Source: an uncultured SAR116 cluster alpha proteobacterium
Lineage (GTDB): Bacteria; Pseudomonadota; Alphaproteobacteria; Puniceispirillales; Marisalimonadaceae
Length of the DNA stretch: 64,000 bases
Direction of reading: 5' to 3'
NCBI GenBank assembly: GCA_902590245.1
Contig: CACIWG010000006.1
Coordinates: 1 to 64,000 of the forward strand
Below are positions 1,377 through 20,379 of the stretch, one piece after another; the first letter of the stretch is position 1; each line of letters opens with the position of its first letter. The position numbers and the translations under genes are program-made. A model generated the notes under the pieces. That model was not told where the DNA came from, did no database searches, and saw only the letters and a program-made list of their open reading frames with translations.

Positions 1377-1460
1377 ATCAAATATCTCCTTATAAAGAAA
1401 TGCCATTACATATTGATAAAATCAAGTGTAAATATTAAAACTATATGTAAGGAGTTTAAT

Positions 1461-3092: not shown

Positions 3093-6000
3093 TTAACTAA
3101 CTTTTTTGACAGAGTGCAGGTCAATTTTTCTTAGAAAAGAATCCCATTTCTCTTCGTAAAGCTTGATATTTTTTTCTTTTACGTGACCATATCCTTTAAT
3201 ACTTAAAGCAGCATTTATTAAATCTTCACAAATATTATAATTTGTTCTTGAAATATTTTTAATGATTATATCGATTGTTAATAATGATTTTTCAGCTAAA
3301 GCAACTTCTTTTTTTCTTTCGTTTGTTAGTCCGAAAAAATCAAATTTTGTTCCCCTTAAAAATTTTAATTTTGATAAAAGTTTAAAAACATAAAACATCC
3401 ATGAACCAAACTTAATTTTTTTTAAATGACCTGTATTTTTGTCTCTAATATTTAATAAGGGAGGAGCAAGATAAAAATTAATATTCTTTTTCATGTTTTT
3501 ATTTAAAAAACTATTAGCAAATTCGCCAGATGTATGAAGCCTAGCTACTTCATATTCATCCTTATATCTCATAAAACGAAATAACATTAATGCAGAATTT
3601 TTTGTTAAACTAAAATCAAATTTGTTTTTAAACAGTAATTTCTCTTTAGCGTACAATTTTTCAATAGTTTCTAAATATTTTTTAGCATATTTATCATCTT
3701 GATAATCAGATAATATATTATGAAATTTTTTGATTTTAACTTTTGGATCATCATCACTTAATTTTTCAACTAATAGACCAGCTTTTTTGAAAACTAAAGA
3801 TCGATTTGAAACTAAAAGCCTTCCCCAATTGAATGCATCTAAATTTTGTTGTATTGAAACCCCATTTAGCTTTATAGCTTTTTCTAGGGCATGGTGTGAG
3901 ATTGGAAGAAAACCTTTTTGCAATGCGAATCCTAATAACATTATGTTAGCAGAAACAGTATCTCCAACTAGTTTTTCTGCAAGGTCAGACATATTAATAA
4001 ATTCAATATTTTCTGAGTTTAAATGGTTTTCTAAATGTTTTTTTAACAATTGATCATCAACTGTAGTTCCAGTATAAACGCCAGAAACTCCTACAGGTTC
4101 TACTCTACCATTTATAACTGCTTTAGTTTTATTTAAATTTAGTGTTCTCGTAATTAATGGGGATACTGAAACAACAGCATCACAACCTAATAATAAATCT
4201 GCAGATTTGTTAGGCAGTCTAGCTGATTTTTCATATAAGTTTTTTCTAGAACTAATTCTTATTTGGCTTGTCACAGCCCCATTTTTTTGAGCTAATCCTG
4301 TAAAATTCATAGTTTGAGCCCATTTATTTTCTATTCTACAAGCCATAACAATTATCGCTGAAACAGTTGAAACTCCAGTCCCACCGATGCCAGCCATTAC
4401 TAGGTTGATATCTTTATTCAATACATTTGGTTCATGAAAATATTTTTTTAAGATTGGTAAAGCTGGATAAGATTTTTTGTTTTCCGTAAAAATCTCATTT
4501 TGAGGAATGCTTATAAAACTAGGACAAAATCCTTTTATGCAAGAATAATCTTTATTGCAAATGCTTTGATCAATTTGTTTTTTTTCTCCATCAAAATGTT
4601 TTAGAGGCTTAACTCCAACGCAATTCGATTTTTCTGCACAATCACCACAACCTTCGCAAACGTCTGGGTTAACAAAAATTTTTCTTTCACGATCCTCAAC
4701 ATAACCTCTCTTTCGTCGACGTCTTAATTCTGTAGCACATGTTTGTACGTAAATAATTGCTGTAACACCTTCAATTTCTCTAAGTTGTTTTTGAATTGGG
4801 ATCATTTCATCTCTATGTGCGATAGTTACTCCATCAGCAAAAAGCTTTAGTTCAGAGAATTGCTCTGGTTCATCTGATATGACAAAAACTTTTTTAACTC
4901 CTTCAGCGGTTAGTTGCTTTGAAATATTCCATGGAGTTCCTCCTCCTATGGCTGATTGTCCACCAGTCATTGCAACGGCGTCATTATAAAGAATTTTAAA
5001 AGTTATATTAGTTCCTGTTGAAACTGCTGCTCTAATAGCGAGTGATCCAGAGTGAGCATAAGTACCATCTCCAATATTTTGAAAAGAATGTTTTTTTGTT
5101 GAAAAGGGAGATCTTCCAATCCAATGACCACCTTCACCTCCCATCTGACTAAAATTAGTTAATTTGTCAGGATGTAAAAAATAGCCAATCGAGTGGCAAC
5201 CTATTCCTATACCTACTATTTCGTCATCCATCATTTTAGTCCCAGAGTTATGAGGGCATCCAGCACAATACCAGGGACTTCTTGTTGCCACAGACGGAAG
5301 ATTATCTCCAATCAATTCATTTTTTACTACTTTTTTTAAACTGATATTATTATCTAAGTTAATTTTTTTTATTAATGCATCAGCTATAATATCACTAGAA
5401 AGTTCTGCAATTTCAGGTATTAATTTTTCTTCAGTTTTCCCATCAAATTTACCTGAGAGGATGGGTTTTTGATCATGGTTGTAAAGAATATGGGCAACTT
5501 GTTCTTCAACGACAGCCCTTTTTTCTTCAATAACAAAAATTTCTTTATATCCATTAATGAAATTTTTTATTTCTTCTCCATTTAATGGCCATGGAACTTT
5601 ACAAGAAAAAATTCCAATACCATTTTTTTCAGGATCTATGATACCAATACTCTCTAAAGCATCTATAGTTTCTGTGCAGGCTTTTCCTACAGCAATTATT
5701 CCAAGATTTTTATCTTTTGGATTTCTTATAATTTTATTAATCTTATTTTGAAAAATAAAATTTTTTGAAGCTGGCAATCTTTTAGTAAATAAAGTTTCTT
5801 CTCTATCTAGAGCCGACTCATGTTTTTGAATATGAACATTTTCAATATTTAAGAGATTTTTAAATTTTGGTCTTAATGATGTTAAATCAACAACAGCACT
5901 CGAATCTGCTGTATCAGCTGTTATTTTTAATCCAACACAAATACCAGCATATCTTGACAATTGATATGCTTGAAGTCCCAAAGGGACAACTTCATGGACA

Positions 6001-6542
6001 TTGGCAGGATAAAATATTGGAATGCCAGCAGATATTAAAGATTGTTCGGATTGATATGCTAATGTTGAACTCTTTCCTATTGGGTCATCAGCAACTGCTA
6101 ATAACATTCCGCCCAGTTTCGAGGAACCTCCCATATTTGCATGTCTAATTGCATCCATGGCTCTGTCTAACCCAGGTCCTTTACCATACCAAAGTGAAAA
6201 GACCCCATCAATTTTTGGTTGATCATACAACTGTATCATTTGGGTGCCCCAAGCTGCTGTTGCAGCTAATTCTTCATTTACGCCAGGTTGAAATACTATG
6301 GCCTCATCATTTAAATATTTTTTAGCTTTATTTAATTCTAAATCCAAAGTTCCTAAGGGTGAACCAGGATAGCCACTGACGTAACCTTGTGTCTTAAACC
6401 CTTTTTCTTTATCAATACGTGATTGTTCTAATAAAAGTCTAACAAGTGCCTGCACTCCATTCATAAGAGCCAAGTCTGATGATTTAGTATAACAATCTGA
6501 AAGTTCAATAGTATTCAAATTTTGAAGTTTTTTATTTTTCAT
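3093..6542 (-). CDS. Indolepyruvate ferredoxin oxidoreductase, fused alpha/beta
   Basis: 1149 aa; CxxCxxC Fe-S motifs (CEGCGDCAEKSNC, CIKGFCPSF), N-terminal pyrimidine-binding and TPP regions (GIGCHSIGYF, GDGTYAHSG), C-terminal gamma-type domain (GIGGTGVST). Confidence 0.93.
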   Translation of the reverse strand: MKNKKLQNLNTIELSDCYTKSSDLALMNGVQALVRLLLEQSRIDKEKGFKTQGYVSGYPGSPLGTLDLELNKAKKYLNDEAIVFQPGVNEELAATAAWGTQMIQLYDQPKIDGVFSLWYGKGPGLDRAMDAIRHANMGGSSKLGGMLLAVADDPIGKSSTLAYQSEQSLISAGIPIFYPANVHEVVPLGLQAYQLSRYAGICVGLKITADTADSSAVVDLTSLRPKFKNLLNIENVHIQKHESALDREETLFTKRLPASKNFIFQNKINKIIRNPKDKNLGIIAVGKACTETIDALESIGIIDPEKNGIGIFSCKVPWPLNGEEIKNFINGYKEIFVIEEKRAVVEEQVAHILYNHDQKPILSGKFDGKTEEKLIPEIAELSSDIIADALIKKINLDNNISLKKVVKNELIGDNLPSVATRSPWYCAGCPHNSGTKMMDDEIVGIGIGCHSIGYFLHPDKLTNFSQMGGEGGHWIGRSPFSTKKHSFQNIGDGTYAHSGSLAIRAAVSTGTNITFKILYNDAVAMTGGQSAIGGGTPWNISKQLTAEGVKKVFVISDEPEQFSELKLFADGVTIAHRDEMIPIQKQLREIEGVTAIIYVQTCATELRRRRKRGYVEDRERKIFVNPDVCEGCGDCAEKSNCVGVKPLKHFDGEKKQIDQSICNKDYSCIKGFCPSFISIPQNEIFTENKKSYPALPILKKYFHEPNVLNKDINLVMAGIGGTGVSTVSAIIVMACRIENKWAQTMNFTGLAQKNGAVTSQIRISSRKNLYEKSARLPNKSADLLLGCDAVVSVSPLITRTLNLNKTKAVINGRVEPVGVSGVYTGTTVDDQLLKKHLENHLNSENIEFINMSDLAEKLVGDTVSANIMLLGFALQKGFLPISHHALEKAIKLNGVSIQQNLDAFNWGRLLVSNRSLVFKKAGLLVEKLSDDDPKVKIKKFHNILSDYQDDKYAKKYLETIEKLYAKEKLLFKNKFDFSLTKNSALMLFRFMRYKDEYEVARLHTSGEFANSFLNKNMKKNINFYLAPPLLNIRDKNTGHLKKIKFGSWMFYVFKLLSKLKFLRGTKFDFFGLTNERKKEVALAEKSLLTIDIIIKNISRTNYNICEDLINAALSIKGYGHVKEKNIKLYEEKWDSFLRKIDLHSVKKVS

Positions 6543-6619
6543 AATAAAATTAACAAGCTTGTTTTAACTTATTAACATATTACAATAAAATTATATATTA
6601 AGTCACATGATAATTAAAA

Positions 6620-8284
6620 ATGTTACCAAAATCTCTAAATTATGATCATCTTTATAACACATTTAATTTAAATATCCCCTATAAGTTTAATATAGCAAGT
6701 GCCACTATTGATAAATTTGCTAACACAAATCGTATAGCTTTAAAAAACTTAAAATATAATGGAGAGTTTGAAAATTTATCTTTTAGATTTATTCAGAAAA
6801 AATCCAACCAATTAGCTAATGCTTTAGATAATTTGAATTTAAATAAAAATGATAGAATTGGTATTATTTTAGGACAGTGTCCTGAAACTTTAATAAGTCA
6901 TATTTCATGTTTTAAAAGTGGAAAAATTTCAATCCCCTTATTTAATTTATTTGGAATCGATGCTTTGAAATTTAGACTAATTGATTCATCGGCATCAGCT
7001 GTTATATGCGATGAACATGGACTAGAAAAATTAATGAAAATTAAACATGATCTTCCGTCATTAAAACACATCATATGTACTGACAAAAAAGAAAGTGACA
7101 ATGACATTTTATTTTTTGATGGCTTGTTAAATAGATCTAAAGACGAATATAAAAATGTTAATACTAATTCTGAAGATCCTGCTTTAATTATTTATACATC
7201 TGGAACAACTGGTGATCCAAAAGGAGCTCTTTTACCACATAGAACATTATTGGGGCATATTCCTGGTGTAGAAATGCCTCACGAATTTCTATCTTCTGAT
7301 CTTTCAAATAATGACTGTTTTTGGACTCCAGCGGATTGGGCGTGGATAGGTGGATTATTTGATGTTTTATTACCTTCTCTTTATTTTGGTATACCTGTTA
7401 TTTCGTTTAGAAGTTCGAAATTTGATCCAGAATTTACATTTGATTTAATGGAAAAGCTTGAAGTTAAAAATACTTTCTTACCACCAACCTCTTTAAAAAT
7501 GATGAAATCATTTAATCTATATAAATCACGAGACAAACTCCATTTAAGAACTGTAGGATCAGGTGGCGAAGCTTTAGGTGAAGAGTTATTAAATTGGGGA
7601 AAAGAAATTTTGAATGTTGGGATCAATGAATTCTACGGTCAGACAGAATGTAATTTAACTGTTTCTAACAATGGACTAATAATGAAGCAAAAACTTGGTT
7701 CAATTGGAAGACCTGTACCAGGACATAAAGTAAAATTAATGAAAGATGATGGAACATTTATTTCAAAAAGTGATGATGAAGGTGAAATAGTTGTTCAAAG
7801 TAATTCCCCATCAATTTTTTCAGGCTATTGGAATAATGATAAAGAAACTCATAAGAAAATTATTGATGGATGGTTACATACAGGTGATTATGCTACAGTT
7901 GATGATGAAGGATATTTTTATTTTAAAGGAAGAAAAGATGATTTAATTAACAGTTCTGGATACAGAATAGGACCAACTGAGATAGAAAATACCATACTAT
8001 CACTTCAAGAAGTTGAAATGGTAGCTGTAGTTGGAGTTCCAGATGAATTAAGAGGAGAAATAATAAAAGCTGTGATTGTACCTAGAGAAAAATCCCTACT
8101 AAAAAACAAAAATGAAAACTTAAAAGATAAAATTAAAGAACATGTGAAACAAAATCTAGCAGCTCATGAATACCCAAGGCTTATAGAATTTGTTAAGGAA
8201 TTACCATTAACAACAACTGGAAAAATTAAAAGAAATTTAATAAGGAAAAATCATATAGAGGTTAAAAATGAGCGAAAAATATAA
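6620..8284 (+). CDS. AMP-dependent acyl-CoA synthetase (acetyl/medium-chain CoA ligase-like)
   Basis: YTSGTTGDPKGALLPHR; GWLHTGDYATVDDEGYFYFKGRKDDLINSSGYRIGPTEIE; TTTGKIKRN. Confidence 0.9.
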   Translation: MLPKSLNYDHLYNTFNLNIPYKFNIASATIDKFANTNRIALKNLKYNGEFENLSFRFIQKKSNQLANALDNLNLNKNDRIGIILGQCPETLISHISCFKSGKISIPLFNLFGIDALKFRLIDSSASAVICDEHGLEKLMKIKHDLPSLKHIICTDKKESDNDILFFDGLLNRSKDEYKNVNTNSEDPALIIYTSGTTGDPKGALLPHRTLLGHIPGVEMPHEFLSSDLSNNDCFWTPADWAWIGGLFDVLLPSLYFGIPVISFRSSKFDPEFTFDLMEKLEVKNTFLPPTSLKMMKSFNLYKSRDKLHLRTVGSGGEALGEELLNWGKEILNVGINEFYGQTECNLTVSNNGLIMKQKLGSIGRPVPGHKVKLMKDDGTFISKSDDEGEIVVQSNSPSIFSGYWNNDKETHKKIIDGWLHTGDYATVDDEGYFYFKGRKDDLINSSGYRIGPTEIENTILSLQEVEMVAVVGVPDELRGEIIKAVIVPREKSLLKNKNENLKDKIKEHVKQNLAAHEYPRLIEFVKELPLTTTGKIKRNLIRKNHIEVKNERKI

Positions 8285-9572
8285 ATTCGATACTATGTCC
8301 TTACATTCTGGGCATGTGCCAGATAAGGAAACTGGTTCAAGAGCTGTTCCTATCTATCAAACGACATCCTATGTTTTTAAGGATACCGATGAAGCAGCTG
8401 CACTATATAATATGGAGGTAGGTGGACATTTATATACAAGAATTTCAAACCCAACAATAGCGACTTTAGAGCAGAGATTAGCTTCTTTGGATGGAGGTGT
8501 AAGTTGTGTTGCTTGCTCAAGTGGGATGGCTGCAATGCATTTAGTTGTAACAGCGATATGTTCAAGTGGAGATCATATTGTAGCATCAAATAAAATGTAT
8601 GGTGCTAATATTAATTTACTTCAGCATACGATGACAAGGTTTGGAATTGAAACGACATTTGTCAATCCAAATAACTTAGAAGAAATTGAAAAAGCAATTA
8701 AGCCAAATACTAAATTAGTATTTGGAGAAGTTATTGGAAATCCTGGTTTAGATGTCATGAACGTGCCTGAGGTTGCTAAAATATGTAAGAAAAAAAATGT
8801 TCCTCTAGCAATAGATGCTACATTTAATACTCCTTATTTAATGAAGCCTATTACATATGGAGCAAATATAGTTATACACTCATTAACGAAATGGATAGGT
8901 GGACATGGTATTGCAATTGGAGGTGCTATAATAAATGGAGGAAACTTTGATTGGGGAAATAAAGAAAAATTTCCTACAATATCAGGGTCCCATTTTGCTC
9001 TTAATGGAATAAGTTTTTGGGAAGAATTTGGACCATCTGCACTAACTGCCAAAATTAGAGCTGAAGGCATGTATAATTTTGGACCATCATTATCTCCAAA
9101 TAACGCTTTTTATATTTTACAAGGAATAGAAACACTTTCATTAAGAATGAAAAAGCATATAGAAAATACAAAAATGATGCTAGAATTTTTAAAAGAAAAT
9201 GAAGCTGTATCTTGGTTGAGACACCCCGATTTACAAGATCATCCAGATCATAAAATTGCAAAAAAAATCTTACCATTAGGATCTGGATCAATAATTGTAT
9301 TTGGTATTAAAGGTGGAAGAGATGCTGGTAAAGCATTTATTGAAAATGTAAAGCTTTCTTCTCATTTGGCAAATGTTGGTGATGCAAAAACATTACTTAT
9401 TCATCCAGGTAGCACGACACATTCACATTTAAGTTCTGAAGCAATGAAGATGTCTGGGTTAACTGATGACTTGATAAGACTTTCTGTTGGTTTAGAAGAT
9501 ATTGAAGATATCAAAATTGATTTTGAAAAAGGCTTTAAAGCTGCTGCCAAAATCTTAAGTAAGAGAAGTTAA
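8268..9572 (+). CDS. metY: O-acetylhomoserine sulfhydrylase-like Cys/Met-metabolism PLP enzyme
   Basis: PIYQTTSYVFKDTDEAA, YTRISNPT, PLP-lysine motif HSLTKWIGGHG, GNFDWGNKEKFPTIS; SD 'agagg' upstream; overlaps previous CDS by 17 nt. Confidence 0.82.
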   Translation: MSEKYKFDTMSLHSGHVPDKETGSRAVPIYQTTSYVFKDTDEAAALYNMEVGGHLYTRISNPTIATLEQRLASLDGGVSCVACSSGMAAMHLVVTAICSSGDHIVASNKMYGANINLLQHTMTRFGIETTFVNPNNLEEIEKAIKPNTKLVFGEVIGNPGLDVMNVPEVAKICKKKNVPLAIDATFNTPYLMKPITYGANIVIHSLTKWIGGHGIAIGGAIINGGNFDWGNKEKFPTISGSHFALNGISFWEEFGPSALTAKIRAEGMYNFGPSLSPNNAFYILQGIETLSLRMKKHIENTKMMLEFLKENEAVSWLRHPDLQDHPDHKIAKKILPLGSGSIIVFGIKGGRDAGKAFIENVKLSSHLANVGDAKTLLIHPGSTTHSHLSSEAMKMSGLTDDLIRLSVGLEDIEDIKIDFEKGFKAAAKILSKRS

Positions 9573-10370
9573 ATGTATAAAGACTTCAAAGGCAATAAAG
9601 TTTATCTCTCAACTGGAGGTCTAAATTTAGTAAATGATAAGGAAACATTATGTTTTGTTCACGGAGCTGGACAAAATCATTATTCATTTACACAACAAAT
9701 TCGATATTTTGTCAGTCAAGGATATAACGTTGTAGCTCCTGATTTTCCTGGTCATGGTTTTTCAGAAGGTTATCAAACTACTTCAATTGAAGAAGATATG
9801 TTGTGGCTTTCCGAATTATTAGCATTTCTTAAAATTGAAAAAGCTACTTTTATTGGTCACTCACAGGGATGTTTAACTATTCTTGAATTAGCAGAAAAAA
9901 AACCTGAACTAGTAATGGGTTTAGTATTCGTAGCTGGAGCAATGTCAATTCCTGTAAATGATTTCTTAATTGACACTTCAATTAATAATCCAGAAAAGGC
10001 GTATGATCTCATGGTTACTTGGGGACAGGATATTTATGGCTCTTTTTCTATATCGGATTGGCCTGGACATAATCATTTAGCTGAAGGTAACGCGGTCATG
10101 AAAATGAATGATCCTTCAGTATTATCGACGGATTTAAAGTCATGTAATTTATATGAAAACGGTAAACAAGCTGCTTCAACAATAAATATAAATTGTTTAG
10201 CTGTTTTAGCAAAATTTGATATGATGACACCCCTAAAAAAAGGTCTTCAAATGGTAGAAAATATTAAGCAGTGTGATTATAAAATTTTAGAATGTGGTCA
10301 TTTTCTTCCAATTGAACAACCTAAGGAATTAAACGCTCTTATTAAAAATTATCTTAATTCTTTGAAATAA
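9573..10370 (+). CDS. Alpha/beta hydrolase
   Basis: FVHGAGQNHYSF oxyanion region, nucleophile elbow GHSQG, C-terminal His (CGHFLPIEQP). Confidence 0.88.
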   Translation: MYKDFKGNKVYLSTGGLNLVNDKETLCFVHGAGQNHYSFTQQIRYFVSQGYNVVAPDFPGHGFSEGYQTTSIEEDMLWLSELLAFLKIEKATFIGHSQGCLTILELAEKKPELVMGLVFVAGAMSIPVNDFLIDTSINNPEKAYDLMVTWGQDIYGSFSISDWPGHNHLAEGNAVMKMNDPSVLSTDLKSCNLYENGKQAASTININCLAVLAKFDMMTPLKKGLQMVENIKQCDYKILECGHFLPIEQPKELNALIKNYLNSLK

Positions 10371-11935
10371 TGAGTAATTGTCTAAAAGAATTAAATTTAA
10401 ATGATCATAAAAATTGGATTATTTCAGATTTAATATTAAAGCAAGCTAAAAAATTCCCAAAATTTAATATTATTGAATTCATTGATAATGAAAAATGGAC
10501 TTATGAAGATATTTTGTCAAAAGGTCTTAAAGCTTCATTTAGATTAAAAAAGAATGGTTTAACAAATGGTGATTCAATAGTCGTTATGATTGATAATCCA
10601 AAGGTCTTTATTCCAATATGGTTAGGAGCGTGTTTTCTTGGAATTACATTTGTTGCACTTAACACAGCATTAAGAGGAGATGTTCTTAAACATCAAATTG
10701 AAATTTCAAAACCTAAATTAATCATAACTGAAAATATATATTTTAAGTACTTCAAAAAAATAAATTGGGGTAAAAAAAATTTAAATATTTTAAATCATGA
10801 TAAATTTCTTCTATCAAAAGAATTATTAATTTCTGAAATTCATCAATCAAAGATGGAAGATATTTCTTGTGTAATGTTTACTAGTGGAACTTCTGGCCCA
10901 GCAAAAGGTGTAATTATGCCAAATGCTCATTGCGTTTTATTTGCTATTGGAACTATTGAAAATTATATTTTGGATAAAAAAGATATTTTTTATATTTGTT
11001 TGCCTTTATTTCATGCAAATGGATTATTTATGCAACTCCTAGCTTGCATTATAAATAGAACAAAGGCCGTAATAAGAGAGAAGTTTTCAGCCAGTAATTG
11101 GTTAAATGATATAATCAATTATAAAATTACTCATACGAATATGTTAGGTGCTGTTGCTGCTTTTGTAGTAGCACAATCGCCAACAAAATTTGATAAAAGG
11201 CATAAGTTAAAAGTAATCGGCTCTGCTCCTTTGCCAAAGGAGCCTGAAAATATCTTTAGAAAACGATTTGGTGTTAAAGAAGTGTTACCTTTATATGGCA
11301 TGACAGAAGTTAATATTCCTGTTTATGGAAAATTAGGAAAAAAGGGAAATGGAACATGCGGAGAAGTATATTCCAAGTATTTTGATGTGGAGGTACGAGA
11401 CACTAATACAGATGAGAAATTAAAAAATGGTGCAGTTGGTGAAATAATGGTTAGACCTAAAATATCATTTGGATTCATGCAAGGTTATTTAGGTATGCCA
11501 GATAAATCTTTTGAAGCTTACAGAAATTTCTGGTTTCATACTGGTGATGCAGGTTTTTTAAATAAAAAAAATCAATTAATATTTGTTGACAGAATTAAAG
11601 ATTGTATAAGAAGAAGAGGTGAAAATATATCTTCTTATGAGGTTGAGCAAGCTTTTTTAAAAATTCCTCAGATTGCTGAGGCAGCGGCATTCGCCGTGCC
11701 TGCAAAAGATCATGGACAAGAAGATGAGGTTATGGTTGCTTTAATGATAATTAAAGGATCAAAAATTGAATACTCCGAATGGATAAATAAAGTAAGTGCT
11801 GACCTGGCAAAATTTGCAATACCTTTATATTTACGTGTTATGAAAAATTTTCCAAAAACACAAACAGGTAAAATTATTAAACATGCATTAAGAACTGAGG
11901 GCATTACAAATGACACTTGGAAAAATAATCTTTAA
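10370..11935 (+). CDS. AMP-dependent acyl-CoA ligase (CaiC-like)
   Basis: FTSGTSGPAKGVIMP; FWFHTGDAGFLNKKNQLIFVDRIKDCIRRRGENISSYEVE; KTQTGKIIK. Confidence 0.9.
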   Translation: MSNCLKELNLNDHKNWIISDLILKQAKKFPKFNIIEFIDNEKWTYEDILSKGLKASFRLKKNGLTNGDSIVVMIDNPKVFIPIWLGACFLGITFVALNTALRGDVLKHQIEISKPKLIITENIYFKYFKKINWGKKNLNILNHDKFLLSKELLISEIHQSKMEDISCVMFTSGTSGPAKGVIMPNAHCVLFAIGTIENYILDKKDIFYICLPLFHANGLFMQLLACIINRTKAVIREKFSASNWLNDIINYKITHTNMLGAVAAFVVAQSPTKFDKRHKLKVIGSAPLPKEPENIFRKRFGVKEVLPLYGMTEVNIPVYGKLGKKGNGTCGEVYSKYFDVEVRDTNTDEKLKNGAVGEIMVRPKISFGFMQGYLGMPDKSFEAYRNFWFHTGDAGFLNKKNQLIFVDRIKDCIRRRGENISSYEVEQAFLKIPQIAEAAAFAVPAKDHGQEDEVMVALMIIKGSKIEYSEWINKVSADLAKFAIPLYLRVMKNFPKTQTGKIIKHALRTEGITNDTWKNNL

Positions 11936-11965
11936 TTGCTACTCTTTAACTAAGAGAGAGGTTTT

Positions 11966-12880
11966 ATGACTAATAACTTTACAGGGTGCTGGCCAGTTGC
12001 ACCAACACCATTTAAAGAAAATGAAGATTTAGATCTTGAGGGAATGAAAAGAGTTTTAGATTGCATGATTGATCAAAAAGTAGATGGCATTTGTATTTTA
12101 GCAAATTATTCGGAACAATTTTTGTTATCTGACTATGAAAGAGAAATTTTAACAAAACTGTGTATTGAACACGTTGCTGGAAAGGTTCCAATAATTGTAA
12201 CTGTAAGCCATTTTTCTACAGATATTGCGTTTAAAAGAGCTAAGTTAGCAAAAGATGTTGGAGCAAATATGGTCATGATGATGCCTCCATATCATGGTGC
12301 TTTGTTAAAAGGAAATGCTGACCAAACTTTCGAACAATTTAGAAAAGTGAACGAAGCCGGAATAACAATTATGGTTCAAGATGCACCTTTATCTGGAGTT
12401 GATCTTTCAGTTAACCTTCTAGTAAAAATGGCAAGAGAAATAGAGCATGTTAAATGTTTTAAAATAGAGTGTGCACAAGCAGCAAACAAACTTAGGGCAT
12501 TAATTGATAAAGGTGGGAGCACTATAGAGGGTCCATTTGATGGCGAAGAAGGAATAACATTATTTGCGGATTTGGAAGCTGGCGCAAAAGGAAATATGAG
12601 TTCAGCTATGTTACCAGATTTGATTGGACCTTTGGTTAAAAATTACATTACAGGAAATAAAAAAGAAGCAAAGAATGAATATAATAGGGTCCTTCCACTC
12701 ATAAATTATGAAAATAGACAGTGTGGATTTAGAGCTACCAAAACAGTATTTAAAGAAGGTGGAGTTATCAAATCAGACGTTTGCCGTCATCCAATCCCAA
12801 GTTTGGATGAAAATACAAAAAAGGGATTATTAGATTTAGCAAATAATTACGATTTAATTGCTATGAAATGGGGATTATAA
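11966..12880 (+). CDS. Dihydrodipicolinate synthase/N-acetylneuraminate lyase superfamily protein
   Basis: WPVAPTPFKENEDLDLEGM N-terminus and candidate Schiff-base Lys (CFKIECAQA); canonical DapA YNxP motif replaced by VQDAP. Confidence 0.85.
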   Translation: MTNNFTGCWPVAPTPFKENEDLDLEGMKRVLDCMIDQKVDGICILANYSEQFLLSDYEREILTKLCIEHVAGKVPIIVTVSHFSTDIAFKRAKLAKDVGANMVMMMPPYHGALLKGNADQTFEQFRKVNEAGITIMVQDAPLSGVDLSVNLLVKMAREIEHVKCFKIECAQAANKLRALIDKGGSTIEGPFDGEEGITLFADLEAGAKGNMSSAMLPDLIGPLVKNYITGNKKEAKNEYNRVLPLINYENRQCGFRATKTVFKEGGVIKSDVCRHPIPSLDENTKKGLLDLANNYDLIAMKWGL

Positions 12881-12896
12881 TTATAAGGAGGCTTTT

Positions 12897-13397
12897 ATGC
12901 CATATTCGTTAGATGAGTTAGCTAAAGATATTAAAGGTATTTTAAAAGATCATGGCATTCAAGAAGGTTCAGATAAAGTTTGTTATTATGTTCAAAAAGC
13001 ATTAATGGATCAAAATTTTATTCAAAATAATTTAAAAGATAGAGATGACCAAAACCCGAGAGAAATTCTTTATGAAGATCCTGAGCTTGGGTTTTGTGTT
13101 TGTGGTCATGTCTATAATCAAGAGGCTATCGGGTTACCTCACGATCATGGATCAAGCTGGGCTGTATACGGTCAAGCTGCTGGAGAAACAGAAATGACAG
13201 AGTGGGAAATCGTAAAACAAGAAAATGATATTAAGCTCGTTAAAGAAATAAAAAAATATGTAATGAAACCAGGTGATGTTAAATTTTATAATGTTGGCGA
13301 TGTTCATTCACCAATAAGAAAAGAGCCTGTAAGACTGCTTAGAATTGAAGGAAAAAATTTGGATAATGTAGAAAGGTCAAAAATTAAAGAACTTTAA
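12897..13397 (+). CDS. Cupin metal-dependent protein, cysteine/thiol dioxygenase-like (COG5553-type)
   Basis: GLPHDHGSSWAVYGQAAGETEMTEW (HxH) and GDVKFYNVGDVHSP (third His) fit a 3-His cupin site. Confidence 0.72.
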   Translation: MPYSLDELAKDIKGILKDHGIQEGSDKVCYYVQKALMDQNFIQNNLKDRDDQNPREILYEDPELGFCVCGHVYNQEAIGLPHDHGSSWAVYGQAAGETEMTEWEIVKQENDIKLVKEIKKYVMKPGDVKFYNVGDVHSPIRKEPVRLLRIEGKNLDNVERSKIKEL

Positions 13398-14970
13398 ATC
13401 TAATTATTTCTTCTTCGTCCATATGATTTAATAAGTCTTTTTCCCAACTTAAGTAAGCCAAGGCATGAGATCTATTTCCAAGGTGCCTTTTGTAGGTATG
13501 ATAAACAAAATCGATACAAATTTCTTTTTTCATAAAAGTTTCTTTTTTCGTACAAAATTCGCTTAATCGTTTAAAATTTTGATCAAATTTATAAAAATAT
13601 ATTGAAGTTTTATATTTAGATGTAATGTCTTTATAAATTAGTTCTGCTTTAGATAAATCATTATAAATTATCAAAAAATCCTTGTTTCTATTAAAGTTAT
13701 AAAATCTTAAGTTTGCTCTATTTATCCACTTAGATCTTTTTATATGAGTTTTTTTAAATTCATGACTTGTTCTAATATCTAACAAATTCAATTTTAAAAA
13801 ATCAGGTAAATAATCATTTTCAACAATTTTTGATTTTGGAATTGTAAATTTTTTTTTCTGATCAAAAAAATTTTTTAAGTAATTGATATCATCGTCAAAA
13901 ATATAAACATCAAAACCCATTTGTTTCAGCCAAGAAGCTGTTAATGAAGCACGTAATAGTTCTCCGTCATCAATCAAAATAATTTTACCATTTAAAACTC
14001 CAACATAACTATCAGTAGCTTGTATTAGTTGTCCACCGGGTGCATGCTTCAAATACATTTTATTTTCAGAAAAATTTTGATTGGCAGTTACATTAAATAT
14101 AAAAGTATTTTTTGTTTTTTCTTCAAGGAAAGAATTTAGTGTTCTAAGGTTAATTTTTTTTAAATTAAATTTATTAATAATTTTATTTGCTGAATTTTGA
14201 TACTTACTTTTCTGGGATTTAATTTTATCTAAGTTTAATGCTTCTATTTTATTGTTTTCAAGTTTGTATCCAGATAATGTCCAACCTTGAGTTCCATTCT
14301 CAAGAGCTCTGACTTTATTTTTAATACCAAAGTTGATTAAATTTTGCGCTCCGATTATTGAACGAGTTCTACCAGCACAATTGATAATTATTTCAGTTTT
14401 ATCATTAATTTCATTTTGAATTCGTAAGGGAATTTCCATATTAGGACAACATACACCTGTTGGAATATTCATTTTTTTAAATTCTTCAAAAGGTCTTCCG
14501 TCAATTACAATGATATCATCTTTTTTGTTTATTTTTTTTCTCAGTTCTGATGGTTTAATATGAGGAGTATTTTTTTTTAACTCTACTAATTCACCAAAGG
14601 CTTTGCTTGGAACATGTATTCCTTTAAATAAAAAAAAACCAGCTTTTTTCCATCCAAAAACTCCATTCTTAAGAATTTGAATATTTCTATATCCAAGATT
14701 GGATGCAATTTCTTCAACTATTTCAGATAAACCGTCATTGTGATCCATTAAAATTATTAACGTTTCTTTACTTGGTATTAGATCAATAATCTTGTTTTCA
14801 AAAATACTATACGGAATTGATATTGAAAAAAAAGGGTGTCCATCTGTATGTTGTCCAATTTCTCTTATATCAATTAAAGAGAATTCAGATGTGCCTGCAT
14901 ATAACTTTTTAACGTCTTTTGCTTTAATATATTTTTTCACTATACTTAAATAATCTAATTTTTTTTCCAT
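13384..14970 (-). CDS. Multi-module rhodanese-like sulfurtransferase
   Basis: Tandem rhodanese-like repeats (LIDIREIGQHTDGHP..., IVIDGRPFEEFKK..., LLDIRTSHEFKKTHI...); one catalytic loop with Cys (INCAGRTRS). Track start 14997 is TTG; ATG at 14970 (MEKKLDYLS) is more likely. Confidence 0.8.
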   Translation of the reverse strand: MEKKLDYLSIVKKYIKAKDVKKLYAGTSEFSLIDIREIGQHTDGHPFFSISIPYSIFENKIIDLIPSKETLIILMDHNDGLSEIVEEIASNLGYRNIQILKNGVFGWKKAGFFLFKGIHVPSKAFGELVELKKNTPHIKPSELRKKINKKDDIIVIDGRPFEEFKKMNIPTGVCCPNMEIPLRIQNEINDKTEIIINCAGRTRSIIGAQNLINFGIKNKVRALENGTQGWTLSGYKLENNKIEALNLDKIKSQKSKYQNSANKIINKFNLKKINLRTLNSFLEEKTKNTFIFNVTANQNFSENKMYLKHAPGGQLIQATDSYVGVLNGKIILIDDGELLRASLTASWLKQMGFDVYIFDDDINYLKNFFDQKKKFTIPKSKIVENDYLPDFLKLNLLDIRTSHEFKKTHIKRSKWINRANLRFYNFNRNKDFLIIYNDLSKAELIYKDITSKYKTSIYFYKFDQNFKRLSEFCTKKETFMKKEICIDFVYHTYKRHLGNRSHALAYLSWEKDLLNHMDEEEIIRFKVL

Positions 14971-14983
14971 ATTAGAGGATAAA

Positions 14984-16636
14984 ATGAATGAGTACAATGT
15001 TGGTGACTTAATATCAGATTTTTTATTTGAAAATGATTTGAAGACAGTATTTGGTGTCGTTTCAGTTCATAACATTCCCATTTTGGATGCTATTGCAAAA
15101 AGAAATTTAATTAAATTTGTACCAGCAAGAGGCGAAATGGGAGCAGGTCATATGGCAGATGGTTTTGCTAGATCTTCTGACAAAGTAGGAGTTGTTATTA
15201 CAAGTACTGGTCCCGGTGCAGCAAATGTTGTAGGATCTCTAGTTGAAGCAAGATTTGCTGGAACACCATTACTTCATATAACTGGTCAAACTGCTACCGA
15301 AAATTTGGATAAAAATCAAGGTACTGTTCATGATGTTCCAAATCAACTTGAAATGATGAAATCTGTTTCAAAAAATGCTTATAGAATATCATCGTCTAAA
15401 AATGTTTTAGAGGTATTAGAAAAAGCACTAGAAGAGGCTATGACGCCTCCAACAGGCCCAGTATCAATTGAGGTTCCAATAGATGTTCAACGTACAATTA
15501 TTAATAGGCAAGAAATATTTAATAAAGTAATTGTCAACGATAAAAATATCTCTTTAGGAGATTTGAAATCATTAGATCTTATCGAAAAAGAAATTAGAAA
15601 CTCAAAAAGAAAAATATTATGGATTGGTAATGGTGGAAAAAAACTTACTTTTGAAGTTGAAAAGTTTATTGATTTGGGTTTTGCGGTCATAACAAGTACT
15701 CAAGGAAGAGGCGTTATAGATGAAAATCATGAGATGTGTTTAGGTTCGTTCAATGCAATTCCAAAAGTTGAAAAATTTTATTCTTCTCTAGATTTAATGA
15801 TTGTTGTTGGAAGTAGATTAAGAGGACATGAAACAAAAGACATGTCATTAAGACTACCTGAAAACCTTATACAAATTGATATAGATTCAAATGCAGAAAA
15901 TAGAACTTATCCTTCAAAAATATTTCATTTAGGTGACGGGAAAAAGGTTTTAGAAAATCTTTATGAGAGATTAGATGATATAAAAAATATAGATGAAAAT
16001 TGGATACATGAAGTGAAATCATTAAAAAAAGAAATTAAAAAAGATTATAAAGAATTTCTTAAAATTTACGGAGAATTCCCTGAAATAATAGAGAGAAATT
16101 TACCTAAAAACGCAAGATGGATTAGAGATGTAACCATATCCAACAGTACTTGGGGAAATAGGTTAATGCCAGTACAAAAATGGTTTCAAAACATTTATCC
16201 AGTTGGAGCAGGGATAGGTCCTGGGATGTCCCTTGGAATTGGCGCATCTTTAGCGACAGAAGAAAAAGTAAAATCAATTGCTATGTGTGGTGACGGCGGG
16301 TTTATGTTAAACGTTTCTGAATTATGGACAGCTGTTGAAATCAACAGCAATATAATTTTCATGGTAATGAACGATAAAGGTTATGGAGTTATAAAACATA
16401 TTCAAGATAGTTTATATGAAGGGAGAAGAAATTTTGCAGACTTACAAGTTCCAAATTTCAAAGAGCTTGCAGATACTGTTAAGATGAAATATTTAATTGT
16501 AAGGTCTTCAAGCGAATTTGAAAATATTTTAAAAAAATCATTTAATTTATCTGGTCCTGTATTATTGGAAATAGATATAAATAGTATTGGGGAATTACCA
16601 AGATATTTTATACCACCACCTTTTACAGAAAAGTAA
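14984..16636 (+). CDS. TPP-dependent enzyme of the acetolactate synthase/2-oxoacid decarboxylase family
   Basis: PARGEMGAGHMADGFAR (catalytic Glu), TSTGPGAANVVGSLVEA, C-terminal GDGGFMLNVSELWTAVEINSNIIFMVMNDKGYG TPP-binding motif; SD 'agagga'. Confidence 0.88.
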   Translation: MNEYNVGDLISDFLFENDLKTVFGVVSVHNIPILDAIAKRNLIKFVPARGEMGAGHMADGFARSSDKVGVVITSTGPGAANVVGSLVEARFAGTPLLHITGQTATENLDKNQGTVHDVPNQLEMMKSVSKNAYRISSSKNVLEVLEKALEEAMTPPTGPVSIEVPIDVQRTIINRQEIFNKVIVNDKNISLGDLKSLDLIEKEIRNSKRKILWIGNGGKKLTFEVEKFIDLGFAVITSTQGRGVIDENHEMCLGSFNAIPKVEKFYSSLDLMIVVGSRLRGHETKDMSLRLPENLIQIDIDSNAENRTYPSKIFHLGDGKKVLENLYERLDDIKNIDENWIHEVKSLKKEIKKDYKEFLKIYGEFPEIIERNLPKNARWIRDVTISNSTWGNRLMPVQKWFQNIYPVGAGIGPGMSLGIGASLATEEKVKSIAMCGDGGFMLNVSELWTAVEINSNIIFMVMNDKGYGVIKHIQDSLYEGRRNFADLQVPNFKELADTVKMKYLIVRSSSEFENILKKSFNLSGPVLLEIDINSIGELPRYFIPPPFTEK

Positions 16637-16643
16637 TAATTGA

Positions 16644-17414
16644 ATGGATCTTCTTTATTTTACTTTCCCAGAAGAGTTATCTGAGTTTAGTATTATTTTT
16701 CTTATTTTCTCAAGTATTTTCACTTCTTTTATATCTGCAGCATTTGGAATAGGAGGAGGGGCTGTATTTTTAGGTTTGTTAGCGATATTTCTAAATCCAA
16801 TAGCTTTATTACCTGTCCATGGCTCTGTTCAAATTGCATCTAATTTTGGAAGAATGCTTCTCATGATTAAAGATGTTTACAAAAAGCCAATTTTACCTTT
16901 TTTTATTGGTACAATTATCGGGAGTTTATTTGGAGGCTACACTTTTATTCAGTTTCCAGGTTGGTTTATTCAATTGATTGTAGGCATTTTTATTTTATGG
17001 ACTGTTTATGGGAAGATACCTGCAATTAAATCAAGATACATTATTATAGGAGGTGTTTTTTCAAGTTTTTTAACTATGTTTTTTGGAGCTACTGGCCCTT
17101 TTATTGCTGGTATGGTAAAGACTATGAAATTAAATCCACTAAGTCATACGGCAACTCATGCAGCACTGATGTCAATGCAGCATGCTATAAAAGTTTTAGT
17201 ATTTGGATTTATGGGATTTAGTTTTTCAGATTATTTTCACATCATTTTATTGATGATAATTTCAGGTTTTATAGGCACATATATTGGTAAAAAAGTTTTA
17301 ATTAAATTTGGTCAAAAGTACTTTAAGATATTTCTTAACTCAATTTTAACAATTATTTCAATTTATTTAATACTAAATGGATTTTTAAATTATGATTTTA
17401 CTTTCTCTTCATAA
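16644..17414 (+). CDS. TauE/SafE-family membrane exporter (sulfite/sulfonate exporter-like)
   Basis: Hydrophobic protein with GIGGGAVFLGLLAIFL near the N-terminus and FFGATGPFIAGMV at the second repeat, as in the TauE/SafE family. Confidence 0.8.
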   Translation: MDLLYFTFPEELSEFSIIFLIFSSIFTSFISAAFGIGGGAVFLGLLAIFLNPIALLPVHGSVQIASNFGRMLLMIKDVYKKPILPFFIGTIIGSLFGGYTFIQFPGWFIQLIVGIFILWTVYGKIPAIKSRYIIIGGVFSSFLTMFFGATGPFIAGMVKTMKLNPLSHTATHAALMSMQHAIKVLVFGFMGFSFSDYFHIILLMIISGFIGTYIGKKVLIKFGQKYFKIFLNSILTIISIYLILNGFLNYDFTFSS

Positions 17415-18879
17415 TTAATGAATATATGTATGGTCCACATAGCCCCAAAAATGCAAATATTAAAAACATAAGTGCAAGAGGTTGAGTAAAGATCATCCAC
17501 CATGCTCCATCAAACATTTTAAGAGAATGTTGTAAATTTGTTTCAACCATTTCACCAAGAATTAAACCTACAGCAATCGGTGCAACAGAAAAACCATGTC
17601 TTCGAGCAAAGAATCCAATTACTCCAAAAATTAAAGCAAGCCAAACATCTAAAAGTTGGCCTTGGAAAGCATATGCACCAATGACAGAGAGACCAAAAAC
17701 AATTGGCCATAATATAGCTGTAGGTACAAGTGAAACCCTAGCAAATATCTTTGCGGCATATAGACCCATTAACATAAACATAATATTTGCAAAAAACATC
17801 GAACCAAATATTTGATAAACTTTTTCAACTTGTTCTGTAAATAAGTACACACCTGGTCTTAAGCCGTGCACCATTAACCCAACTAATATGATAGCAGTAG
17901 TTCCACTGCCAGGAATGCCTAAAACCATTGTCGGCACCATCGCACCACCAGTTGCTGAATTGTTTGCAGCTTCGGCCCCTGCTATGCCTTCAATAGAACC
18001 TTTCCCAAATTCTTCTTTGTTTTTAGACCATCTTCTTGCTTCTGAATATCCAATCATTGATGCAACAGTTGCACCTTCTGCAGGCAAAACACCAATGAAG
18101 GTACCTATCCCACATGAACGTAAAATTGTTTTCCAAATTTTCTTATAATCTTCTTTTGTTGGTAGTTTAACCGCTTTCATACTTACAGTATTAACAATTT
18201 TATTAACAGTTTTTGATTGAACTAAAAGTTCTGAAATAGCAAAAAGCCCAATAAATATTGGAACAAAATGAAGACCTTCATACAGTTCATAATTTCCAAA
18301 CATAAATCGTTCAATACCTGTAACTCTCTCGGCCCCAATAGTTGATAGCCAAACACCAAAAATTCCACCTATTAAATTTTTAACGGCCCCACCTGCACTT
18401 ATACTAGCTAACATTGATAACCCAAATACAGTTAATGCAAAGTATTCTGGTGAACGAAATTCATAAGCTACTCTCGCTAACAATGGAGCTGCAAAGCATA
18501 ATACAATCACAGAAAAAACTCCACCTACTGTACTAGAAATAACAGCAACTCCAAGGGCTCGACCAGCTTCACCTTTTTGTGCAAGAGGATAACCATCAAA
18601 TGTAGTTGCCGCAGCCGCAGATGTACCAGGCGTATTAATTAAGATAGCAGTTATAGATCCAGCAAAAGTTGCTGAGACATAAATTGTTGCAAGAACAGCA
18701 ATAGCATGAACAGGATCCATTGTTAAAGTAAAAGGTAATAACAATGCAGCACCTGTAGTTGCACCCAAACCAGGTAAAACTCCAATTATAACGCCTAGTA
18801 TAGTTGTAGCAAATATCAAGAATAGTAAATATGGATCAGTTGCTACTGAAGCCATTGCTAATAATGCTTGTTCAAACAT
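17398..18879 (-). CDS. tctA: Tripartite tricarboxylate transporter large permease (TctA)
   Basis: GVLPGLGATTGAALLLPFT, LINTPGTSAAAATTFDGYPLAQKGEAGRALG, VPTMVLGIPGSGTTAIILVGL. Confidence 0.95.
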   Translation of the reverse strand: MFEQALLAMASVATDPYLLFLIFATTILGVIIGVLPGLGATTGAALLLPFTLTMDPVHAIAVLATIYVSATFAGSITAILINTPGTSAAAATTFDGYPLAQKGEAGRALGVAVISSTVGGVFSVIVLCFAAPLLARVAYEFRSPEYFALTVFGLSMLASISAGGAVKNLIGGIFGVWLSTIGAERVTGIERFMFGNYELYEGLHFVPIFIGLFAISELLVQSKTVNKIVNTVSMKAVKLPTKEDYKKIWKTILRSCGIGTFIGVLPAEGATVASMIGYSEARRWSKNKEEFGKGSIEGIAGAEAANNSATGGAMVPTMVLGIPGSGTTAIILVGLMVHGLRPGVYLFTEQVEKVYQIFGSMFFANIMFMLMGLYAAKIFARVSLVPTAILWPIVFGLSVIGAYAFQGQLLDVWLALIFGVIGFFARRHGFSVAPIAVGLILGEMVETNLQHSLKMFDGAWWMIFTQPLALMFLIFAFLGLCGPYIYSLIMKRK

Positions 18880-18890
18880 TTAAAAATTTC

Positions 18891-19352
18891 CTAGCCATAA
18901 TACATGTCCATAAGAAGTCCTCTTGGAAATCTTATTTTCAATACAAAATCAAATAATAAAAAAATAAATAGCGGTGTTAGCGTTGCTGTTAAAAAAGAAA
19001 CCCAAATCCTTTTTTCACCCCATAATAATCCCATCAATAACATCACAACAAAAATCCCAATAAACATATCAGTATAAACAGTTAGCAAATAGAATATAAA
19101 AAATAAGCCCATACTTCCCCAAGTTGGAAATTTTTCTAATTTTATTGGCTCTGGATTATTTTTTTTATATTGGAAAGTTAATACCGATATTAAAATTAAA
19201 TTTAAAATCATTAAAAATATTGGAAAGGATCTAGCTTGCATACTATCACCAACAATCATTTCAGGTGACGTATCAAGCTGAAGTGAAATTCCAATGACTA
19301 TAATTGAAAAAACTGTAAGAAATAATGGGATTGTATAAAATTTATTAGTCAT
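18891..19352 (-). CDS. tctB: Tripartite tricarboxylate transporter small permease (TctB)
   Basis: Four-helix-like hydrophobic protein between tctA and tctC; QARSFPIFLMILNLIL. Confidence 0.85.
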   Translation of the reverse strand: MTNKFYTIPLFLTVFSIIVIGISLQLDTSPEMIVGDSMQARSFPIFLMILNLILISVLTFQYKKNNPEPIKLEKFPTWGSMGLFFIFYLLTVYTDMFIGIFVVMLLMGLLWGEKRIWVSFLTATLTPLFIFLLFDFVLKIRFPRGLLMDMYYG

Positions 19353-19363
19353 AGTTTATATAA

Positions 19364-19391
19364 AATGCCCTCTGCTTTAACAGAGGGCATT
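19364..19391 (-). terminator. Intergenic hairpin between tctC and tctB (partial terminator or mRNA-stabilising)
   Basis: Perfect 11-bp inverted repeat AATGCCCTCTG-ctttaa-CAGAGGGCATT; followed on the minus strand by only a short T-run. Confidence 0.75.
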
Positions 19392-19401
19392 AATTATTTG
19401 T

Positions 19402-20379
19402 TTACTTCATTAAGCCCATTTCTTTAAGAGCTGGTCCAAATTCACCAACCATAAAAGCAATTTGCTTACCCCAAGGTCCTGAAGGTTGAGGTGAAGTATT
19501 ATCTAGTCCAGAATTTGCTAAATAAGCCTGATACATTGAATGTTTCATAGCTTTTGCCATTCCCTTTTCAAGCTCTGCAACTCTAGCTTTATCTACGCCT
19601 GCGTGAGTTACAAATCCTCTTGTTGTAGATAACACAAGATCAATACCTAACTCTTTTGCTGTTTTAGCTTTTGGAATAGGAGCCATTCCATTTTCAGCTA
19701 AGATAACTAAAGGACATATATCGCCAGCTTCAACAGGTGCAGCAGCTTCAGATAAGTTCAACGTTCCTACATCAACCTCACCAGCAACAAGTCTAGTTGC
19801 TAATTCTCCACCACCTTTGTATGGAATATATTTCGGCATTTTCTGTCCTAATCTTTTTGCCCATAAATAAACTGTTATATGATCTATTGTTCCAGTATGG
19901 GTTCCACCAAATGTAATTTTGTCACCTTTCTTCATTCCGGCAACGAAATCTTCTGGTGTTTTGTAAGGACTCTTTTTACAATTAACCATTAGAATTTGAG
20001 GGTCATTTGTACCTCTTGCTATTGGAGCCATATCGCTGACTTTTAACTTAGTTTTACCCATTGCCATTGTAATAGCATGTCCTACTGTAAAAGTTAGGAT
20101 TGTATTTCCATCTGCAGGCCTTGTCATGAAATAATTCATAGCAGCAGCTCCGCCACCACCTCTTTTATTAACAACAACCATATCTTGTTTTAGAGTTCTT
20201 CTAGATCTTAACATCATCATTCTTGAGTTAACATCTGTTCCACCCCCTGCACCAGCATGAGTAACAACCTCAATGGCAGGTTTTTTCTGAGCGAAACTTG
20301 GAGCAGCAGTAAAGGCAATTAATCCTGTAAGGACAGTCAAACCTGAACCAATGCTCAAAAGTGTTTTTTTATTAATCAT
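19402..20379 (-). CDS. tctC: Tripartite tricarboxylate transporter substrate-binding protein (TctC)
   Basis: Signal peptide MINKKTLLSIGSGLTVLTGLIAFTAAPSFAQ; THAGAGGGTDVNSRMM; KITFGGTHTGTIDH; IPYKGGGELATRLVAGEVDVG. Confidence 0.95.
   Translation of the reverse strand: MINKKTLLSIGSGLTVLTGLIAFTAAPSFAQKKPAIEVVTHAGAGGGTDVNSRMMMLRSRRTLKQDMVVVNKRGGGGAAAMNYFMTRPADGNTILTFTVGHAITMAMGKTKLKVSDMAPIARGTNDPQILMVNCKKSPYKTPEDFVAGMKKGDKITFGGTHTGTIDHITVYLWAKRLGQKMPKYIPYKGGGELATRLVAGEVDVGTLNLSEAAAPVEAGDICPLVILAENGMAPIPKAKTAKELGIDLVLSTTRGFVTHAGVDKARVAELEKGMAKAMKHSMYQAYLANSGLDNTSPQPSGPWGKQIAFMVGEFGPALKEMGLMK

Follow-up and report, generated by a model that had tools for sequence, protein, structure and literature searches.

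What would a SAR116 bacterium do with a gene block in which two acyl-CoA ligases, a Cys/Met-type PLP enzyme, a cupin, a rhodanese and a TctCBA importer lie side by side? The block is part of the window, a 64,000-nucleotide stretch of DNA from a SAR116 (Puniceispirillales) genome, and an earlier note had proposed that it forms a catabolic island for an organosulfur carboxylate. As the best explanation, to which we give a probability of about 0.5, we propose that this conserved SAR116 cluster serves the catabolism of a small sulfur-bearing carboxylate and has a dioxygenase–rhodanese core. SAR116 members rank with the most abundant bacteria of the surface ocean; such a pathway, if it holds, would be an unrecognized route from dissolved organic sulfur in this clade. 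Two clade-wide SAR116 studies cover DMSP, sulfonate and Sox genes (PMC8547437, PMC12262181). Rhodanese is mentioned in the main text of neither, TauE and dioxygenase are not mentioned in that of PMC8547437, and tricarboxylate is not mentioned in that of PMC12262181.

Gene content and conservation of the block

All twelve open reading frames listed in the earlier note were found (Table 1), and their families were matched by Pfam, NCBIfam and PDB searches, which confirms its gene inventory. Hydrolase C reached no NCBIfam equivalog. Gene order and orientation are intact in 18 of 20 fetched stretches from four genera, and the encoded proteins fall to ~45% identity across these loci. Because the order is identical across genera, the block is more than a chance arrangement. 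The co-occurrence that the note's reading called for is therefore borne out, with the gene set forming a conserved unit across the four genera; the complete loci all belong to one SAR116 family. Nearly all loci of this family carry the gene for the POR + DUF6537 protein to the left of CoA ligase A, and in two (L012 and L014) it is swapped for a different IOR plus a CoA ligase. This gene is a conserved flank whose membership of the cluster is uncertain.

Table 1. Genes of the block and its left flank, with positions in the window
Gene	Product	Position	Strand	Evidence
Flank	POR + DUF6537 protein (indolepyruvate/2-oxoacid ferredoxin oxidoreductase-type)	3093..6542	-	Pfam; divergent left neighbor
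A	Acyl-CoA ligase (AMP-forming), ACSM/acetyl-CoA-synthetase-like	6620..8284	+	PF00501, 222 bits; PDB 5u2a, 9g79, ACSM2A
B	MetY-type PLP enzyme, O-acetylhomoserine sulfhydrylase family (Cys_Met_Meta_PP)	8268..9572	+	TIGR01326; best PDB match 8sf5
C	Alpha/beta hydrolase	9573..10370	+	PF00561
D	Second acyl-CoA ligase (AMP-binding)	10370..11935	+	PRK06155-like, under the PRK06155 cutoff
E	DapA (DHDPS) superfamily, L-2-keto-3-deoxyarabonate-dehydratase-like	11966..12880	+	Match to 3fkk
F	3-His cupin, thiol-dioxygenase homolog (H82, H84, H137, R149, R160)	12897..13397	+	Profile, fold, alignment
G	Four-domain rhodanese, one catalytic-type Cys (C207, CAGRTRS loop)	13384..14997	-	1yt8 match; Cys conservation
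H	TPP-dependent enzyme, PRK07064 family	14984..16636	+	NF005470
I	TauE/SafE-family permease	16644..17414	+	PF01925, 68 bits versus 32.6
J	TctA	17398..18879	-	PF01970, 501 bits
K	TctB	18891..19352	-	PF07331
L	TctC solute-binding receptor	19402..20379	-	PF03401; PDB TctC/Bug proteins 4x9t, 8hka

The cupin and the rhodanese

Searched alone, cupin F matches no Pfam or NCBIfam model. Its profile matches mercaptosuccinate dioxygenase in the PDB (8vni, 1e-9), as well as 3-mercaptopropionate dioxygenase and CDO; its profile hits include 4wvz at 0.0025. With its AF2 model (pLDDT 96.5), Foldseek ranks 1–25 are all thiol dioxygenases, with TM (query) values of 0.64–0.81. By profile and predicted fold, cupin F is a thiol-dioxygenase homolog. 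H82, H84 and H137 are invariant in 19 sequences and align with the iron ligands of MDO (three His, no Glu); a carboxylate-binding Arg aligned to MDO Arg168, the role of which has been described (PMC8050391), is also kept. Characterized thiol dioxygenases further have in common an outer-sphere Ser-His-Tyr motif (PMC8050391), which the alignment shows to be absent from cupin F, where L147, R149 and E151 stand opposite S155, H157 and Y159 of MDO. R149 is invariant within the cupin subfamily. With this motif missing, thiol oxygenation is not assured. The earlier description of a 3-His thiol-dioxygenase-like cupin holds for the His triad and the fold, and the Arg is kept as well, but of the two features that characterized thiol dioxygenases have in common, one is absent. 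H-x-Y is kept in all CDO-type frames with an HxH motif in the rhodanese loci; the apparent HxY matches in two loci, L051 and L055, precede the third His (GDAHFYG); they are not the motif.

The cupin subfamily has members beside the rhodanese in one betaproteobacterium (L018) and at the end of a contig in one alphaproteobacterium (L058); in L051 and L055, a member forms part of a sulfoacetaldehyde operon that also carries SauS, Xsc and Pta. The last two loci come from one genus and thus represent a single event. Genome-wide, co-occurrence of Xsc and the cupin is not enriched: both, with Xsc over its cutoff, are found only in G065 and G185, of the same genus. Many further loci of the subfamily have no sulfur neighbors, which counts against the organosulfur reading. 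A phylum-wide search returned few homologs beyond the Alphaproteobacteria, and a search of plasmids gave weak matches only; the cupin that adjoins the rhodanese on a Ti plasmid is a different, ordinary one.

Rhodanese G matches 1yt8, a Pseudomonas aeruginosa thiosulfate sulfurtransferase of known structure from a 539-aa family, at 2e-74 (best stretch, residues 28–431 of 537), and the likeness is one of four-domain rhodanese homology. The term quadruple rhodanese, used previously, fits this four-domain architecture, but only one domain has a catalytic-type Cys: Cys207 is invariant in 45/45 homologs, and none of the remaining three domains has a conserved Cys in its loop. An alternative ATG start is possible at 14970. 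To our knowledge, the four-domain 1yt8 family has no established function.

Among 34 alphaproteobacterial rhodanese-homolog loci, a thiol dioxygenase is fused to the rhodanese homolog in eight and directly adjacent to it in 11, and this frequent fusion gives the four-domain, single-Cys family a testable partner. Compared from general knowledge, the CDO–rhodanese fusions found here resemble persulfide dioxygenase–rhodanese fusions in coupling an iron oxygenase to a rhodanese, whereas the dioxygenase of the latter has the ETHE1 metallo-beta-lactamase fold and is not a cupin. Across 189 alphaproteobacteria, with the window's own genome excluded, 20 of the 25 genomes with the cupin (one of them a marginal match to a CDO-type cupin) also have the rhodanese (p ~7e-15, from raw counts that ignore phylogeny and genome size). 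Gene fusion, adjacency and the published precedent of a mercaptosuccinate cluster tie the pair to sulfur metabolism, in agreement with the earlier note. A bolder suggestion, which we hold to be doubtful, is that the subfamily has traded Ser-His-Tyr for its invariant Arg and, with the four-domain rhodanese, may constitute a new kind of sulfur oxygenase that would act on a persulfide- or sulfite-type species, not a simple thiol, and serve an undescribed SAR116 organosulfur-carboxylate pathway. If true, this would connect the dissolved organic sulfur of surface seawater with sulfur oxidation there.

Alternative readings of the block

The MetY-type enzyme B scores 546 bits with TIGR01326 (cutoff 495) and narrowly misses the PRK08134 equivalog (618 versus 636). 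It is not a sole assimilatory copy, as other strong, full-length PF01053 paralogs occur here (two) and in every relative searched; an assimilatory role for B could nevertheless apply, which counts against the organosulfur reading. Protein E, previously called a DapA-superfamily aldolase, belongs to the superfamily, but its nearest match is a dehydratase, that of L-2-keto-3-deoxyarabonate (3fkk, 1.9e-91, residues 4–303, 300 of 304 residues). TPP enzyme H scores 686 bits with NF005470 (cutoff 495), and homologs of its family lie in varied clusters (aromatic or oxo-acid) in which sulfur genes are not evident. Such matches suggest that H is a generic TPP enzyme and that H and E would suit sulfur-free chemistry equally well. 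The earlier note had also linked TauE/SafE to sulfite; the family is too broad for this, and because it has six members in this 75% complete genome, TauE is not proof of sulfite export. The proposed organosulfur-carboxylate island is thus partly upheld, by its conservation as a unit and by the sulfur link of the cupin and rhodanese, and not by E and H.

These two enzymes lend themselves to a somewhat unlikely alternative, a sulfur-free oxo-acid or sugar-acid cluster. TctCBA would import a sugar acid or dicarboxylate, E would lead to a semialdehyde, H and the IOR-type protein would decarboxylate 2-oxo acids, the CoA ligases would activate the products, and the cupin and rhodanese would be housekeeping or regulatory passengers. 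The dehydratase match of E, its 60–64% homologs in Rhodobacterales sugar-acid operons, the surroundings of the H family and the IOR-type gene that flanks the block in most loci are in keeping with this. However, the partners present around the Rhodobacterales homologs, a sugar-acid dehydratase and a semialdehyde dehydrogenase, are not among the window genes scanned, and the retention of a thiol-dioxygenase-fold cupin, a rhodanese of a dioxygenase-linked family and MetY would be left unexplained. We also find it unlikely that the block comprises two or three neighboring operons, each with a task of its own (A–F; H–I with antisense G; TctABC), which do not make up one pathway and have stayed side by side through vertical descent in genomes that rearrange slowly. 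The division of the genes into three transcription blocks, spread over both strands, and the confinement of every full locus to one family are consistent with such a history, as is the conservation of TctA at 87–98%, against enzymes down to 45–65%, which suggests different constraints. Yet the right edge is sharp, with the DNA-ligase gene adjoining TctC confined to the window's genus and the block itself intact, the rhodanese has diverged to ~45% identity without reordering, and extra CoA-type genes have been gained inside the block in some loci.

The operon context of L051 and L055, an authentic SauS–Xsc–Pta setting for the cupin subfamily, would favor a sulfonate pathway with H as sulfoacetaldehyde acetyltransferase and TauE as sulfite exporter, which we consider very improbable. 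H reaches 144 bits with the Xsc-type model PRK07525 (cutoff 620), the block has no phosphate acetyltransferase or SauS-type gene, and the best match to the Xsc model in the genome (75% complete) is 6.4e-65, versus 1e-234 to 1e-292 for over-cutoff matches. The curated scores rule out H as Xsc, and the sulfonate pathway is largely refuted.

A candidate route and its relatives

The organosulfur reading is backed by data in its gene set, the conservation of the unit, the predicted cupin fold and the rhodanese–thiol dioxygenase coupling seen elsewhere. On this reading, TctCBA would import the acid, the handling of CoA thioesters would fall to ligases A and D together with hydrolase C, and the MetY-type enzyme B would break or remake a C–S bond. 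Cupin F may use O2 to oxygenate the released thiol or persulfide sulfur, which the single-Cys rhodanese G could pass onward, for example from persulfide and sulfite to thiosulfate, or in reverse, with TauE as a putative exporter of the sulfur oxyanion. The carbon skeleton would be handled as a 2-oxo acid by the keto-deoxy-acid dehydratase E and the TPP enzyme H.

In the mercaptosuccinate degraders Variovorax paradoxus B4 and Advenella mimigardefordensis, msdo is clustered with cystathionine beta-lyase and rhodanese genes, and sulfite is a product of the degradation (PMC5373536). The SAR116 block has the same combination of a thiol-dioxygenase-fold cupin, a Cys/Met-type PLP enzyme and a rhodanese in one neighborhood, with an importer nearby. 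It differs in that MetY replaces the beta-lyase, the cupin lacks Ser-His-Tyr, the importer is of the TTT and not the ABC type, and there is no LysR regulator inside the block. The SAR116 block additionally has a pair of CoA ligases, along with a hydrolase, dehydratase, TPP enzyme and TauE. The Advenella cluster for DTDP and 3-mercaptopropionate comprises Mdo, the desulfinase Acd, a CoA transferase and TctC (PMC5373536); there, too, TTT binding proteins and CoA-thioester chemistry accompany a thiol dioxygenase, whereas the SAR116 block has no acyl-CoA-dehydrogenase-type desulfinase and a dioxygenase of another subfamily.

S-(2-succino)cysteine was an attractive substrate because a C–S lyase plus Msdo would fit it; it was rejected as the natural substrate, as the 2SC-lyase paper mentions neither mercaptosuccinate nor a dioxygenase. 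Sox is not an obligate partner either, with SoxY in just four of eight genomes searched. On plasmids, rhodanese homologs adjoin CDO; two of these neighborhoods also include cystathionine beta-lyase and one includes TauE, and on a Ti plasmid a homolog lies next to alkanesulfonate transport genes.

Conservation and layout of the block

All twelve genes described in the earlier note are present where it had placed them, and its family assignments hold with refinements for the cupin (F), the rhodanese (G), the DapA-superfamily protein (E) and the TPP enzyme (H). CoA ligase A, MetY-type PLP enzyme B, alpha/beta hydrolase C, CoA ligase D, E and F lie head to tail on the + strand, neighboring genes overlapping or standing apart by no more than ~30 bases. 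G is on the − strand between F and H, H and the TauE/SafE permease (I) are on the + strand and TctABC (J–L) is on the − strand. The host genome (1.56 Mb, 75% complete) has uncultured SAR116 alphaproteobacteria as the closest named relatives of the window.

Of 58 genomes in the window's family, 45 carry the TPP gene H, with all four genera represented; other genomes of the order gave no match at the same cut-off, save one distant 40% hit. The neighborhood check proposed in the earlier note bore out conservation: 18 of 20 stretches fetched around H, some being contigs that also appear among the window's nearest relatives, keep A–L in full order and orientation, and the other two are one broken by a contig end and the distant hit. 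Identities to the window in other genera are 44–53% (G), 51–56% (C), 57–65% (D), 59–70% (H), 62–68% (F), 73–77% (E), about 78–84% (MetY) and 87–95% (TctA). The right edge is sharp because a DNA ligase gene adjoins TctC in the window's genus only. To the left, an indolepyruvate/2-oxoacid ferredoxin oxidoreductase-type (IOR) gene is a frequent neighbor; in comparison loci L012 and L014 the usual one is replaced, and ligase A identity falls to 73% in L012, which suggests segment replacement. Extra sequence separates cupin from rhodanese in L016, L147 and L150. Given the intact order, sharp edge and in-block insertions, the block behaves as a unit that accepts added CoA-type enzymes.

Cupin F, rhodanese G and thiol dioxygenases

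Searched on its own, cupin F matched neither Pfam nor NCBIfam families. Its profile, built from 19 sequences, matched mercaptosuccinate dioxygenase (MDO) first, at 1e-9, followed by 3-mercaptopropionate and cysteine dioxygenases, and thiol dioxygenases are the nearest structures to its AF2 model (pLDDT 96.5). H82, H84 and H137 are invariant. In the alignment, R160 corresponds to Arg168, through which MDO binds the carboxylate of its substrate (PMC8050391). The proposed thiol-dioxygenase-like 3-His cupin is thus upheld in profile, fold and His triad, but the Ser-His-Tyr motif, common to structurally characterized thiol dioxygenases and not strictly needed for activity (PMC8050391), is absent by alignment, with L147/R149/E151 in its place (R149 invariant in the subfamily). 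Because this shared feature is missing, we regard F as a homolog of thiol dioxygenases and do not count it among them.

Rhodanese G, previously called quadruple, matches thiosulfate sulfurtransferase 1yt8 of P. aeruginosa, but across 45 homologs a catalytic-type Cys is kept in domain 2 only (C207, CAGRTRS). Of 34 homologous alphaproteobacterial loci, eight (L165, L166, L170, L172, L173, L177, L183, L189) have the rhodanese fused in frame to a thiol-dioxygenase domain that keeps H-x-Y, and in 11 such a domain directly adjoins it; a Cys/Met PLP gene lies within 450 bases in five. The fusions, single open frames of 751–870 aa joining this domain to the four-domain rhodanese, provide a direct functional link for this family. 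Annotated plasmids carry cysteine dioxygenase (CDO), metC and rhodanese; CDO and rhodanese; or CDO, metC, two rhodaneses and TauE. In SAR116 and betaproteobacterial locus L018, a gene-F-subfamily cupin occupies the dioxygenase's position beside the rhodanese. Cupin–rhodanese co-occurrence in other genomes, one part of the four-gene co-occurrence (with TPP and TauE) on which the earlier note had staked its proposal, is strong (20 of 25 cupin genomes, p about 7e-15, uncorrected for relatedness and genome size).

Candidate function

The best-supported reading, at roughly even odds (about 0.5), is that the block serves organosulfur-carboxylate catabolism around an oxygenase–rhodanese core. Judged from protein families, it would combine import, C–S chemistry, oxygenation, sulfur transfer and export; block conservation and the rhodanese's genomic coupling to thiol dioxygenases are observed directly. 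Its parts and logic resemble known organosulfur clusters: in Variovorax and Advenella, the MDO gene is clustered with rhodanese-domain and cystathionine beta-lyase genes (PMC5373536). The earlier note knew of no pathway with this exact set, and the open-access literature subset likewise yielded no description of the twelve-gene set, the motif-less cupin subfamily or the dioxygenase–rhodanese fusions.

The main rival, a sulfur-free oxo-acid or sugar-acid route, is rather unlikely. The nearest match of E, labeled an aldolase in the earlier note, is L-2-keto-3-deoxyarabonate dehydratase, and homologs of E (60–64%) in Rhodobacterales lie inside sugar-acid operons. H is of the PRK07064 family; sulfoacetaldehyde acetyltransferase (Xsc) was ruled out by family-model search. 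MetY has further strong paralogs in the same genome. By themselves, these three give no pointer to sulfur. Adjacent but unrelated operons are somewhat less probable still. The organosulfur reading also draws on two genomes from the same genus (L051, L055), where a cupin of this subfamily neighbors SauS, Xsc and Pta; together they count as one independent link to sulfur.

Coordinates of the block, its flanks and comparison loci
Locus	Positions	Features
Window	6620-20379	Genes A–L
Window	17398-20379	TctA (87–98%) and mostly TctC far better kept across genera than the block's enzymes
Window	1413-6542	Left flank, differing among close relatives: IOR and CoA ligase
L012 (also L014)	2-3711	Left flank: different IOR, CoA ligase, crotonase-like ORF (441 aa in L012)
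L016 (same gap in L147, L150)	10537-12461	Inserted between cupin and rhodanese, both on the reverse strand: one crotonase-like and one family III CoA-transferase-like gene, assigned by sequence reading
L051	1597-9185	Sulfoacetate-type operon (SauS, succinyl-CoA-ligase-like pair, Xsc, Pta); gene-F-subfamily cupin and 2OG-Fe(II) oxygenase alongside
L055	8600-19000	As L051
L101 (Ti plasmid)	4005-11044	Rhodanese homolog adjoining alkanesulfonate-type ABC transporter and flavin monooxygenase; cupin of ordinary type, unrelated to gene F
L099 (Marinobacter plasmid)	8526-8969	Thiol-dioxygenase-like ORF just before rhodanese, overlapping an annotated hypothetical; surrounding TRAP/CoA-transferase/acyl-CoA dehydrogenase cluster resembles mercapto-acid degradation
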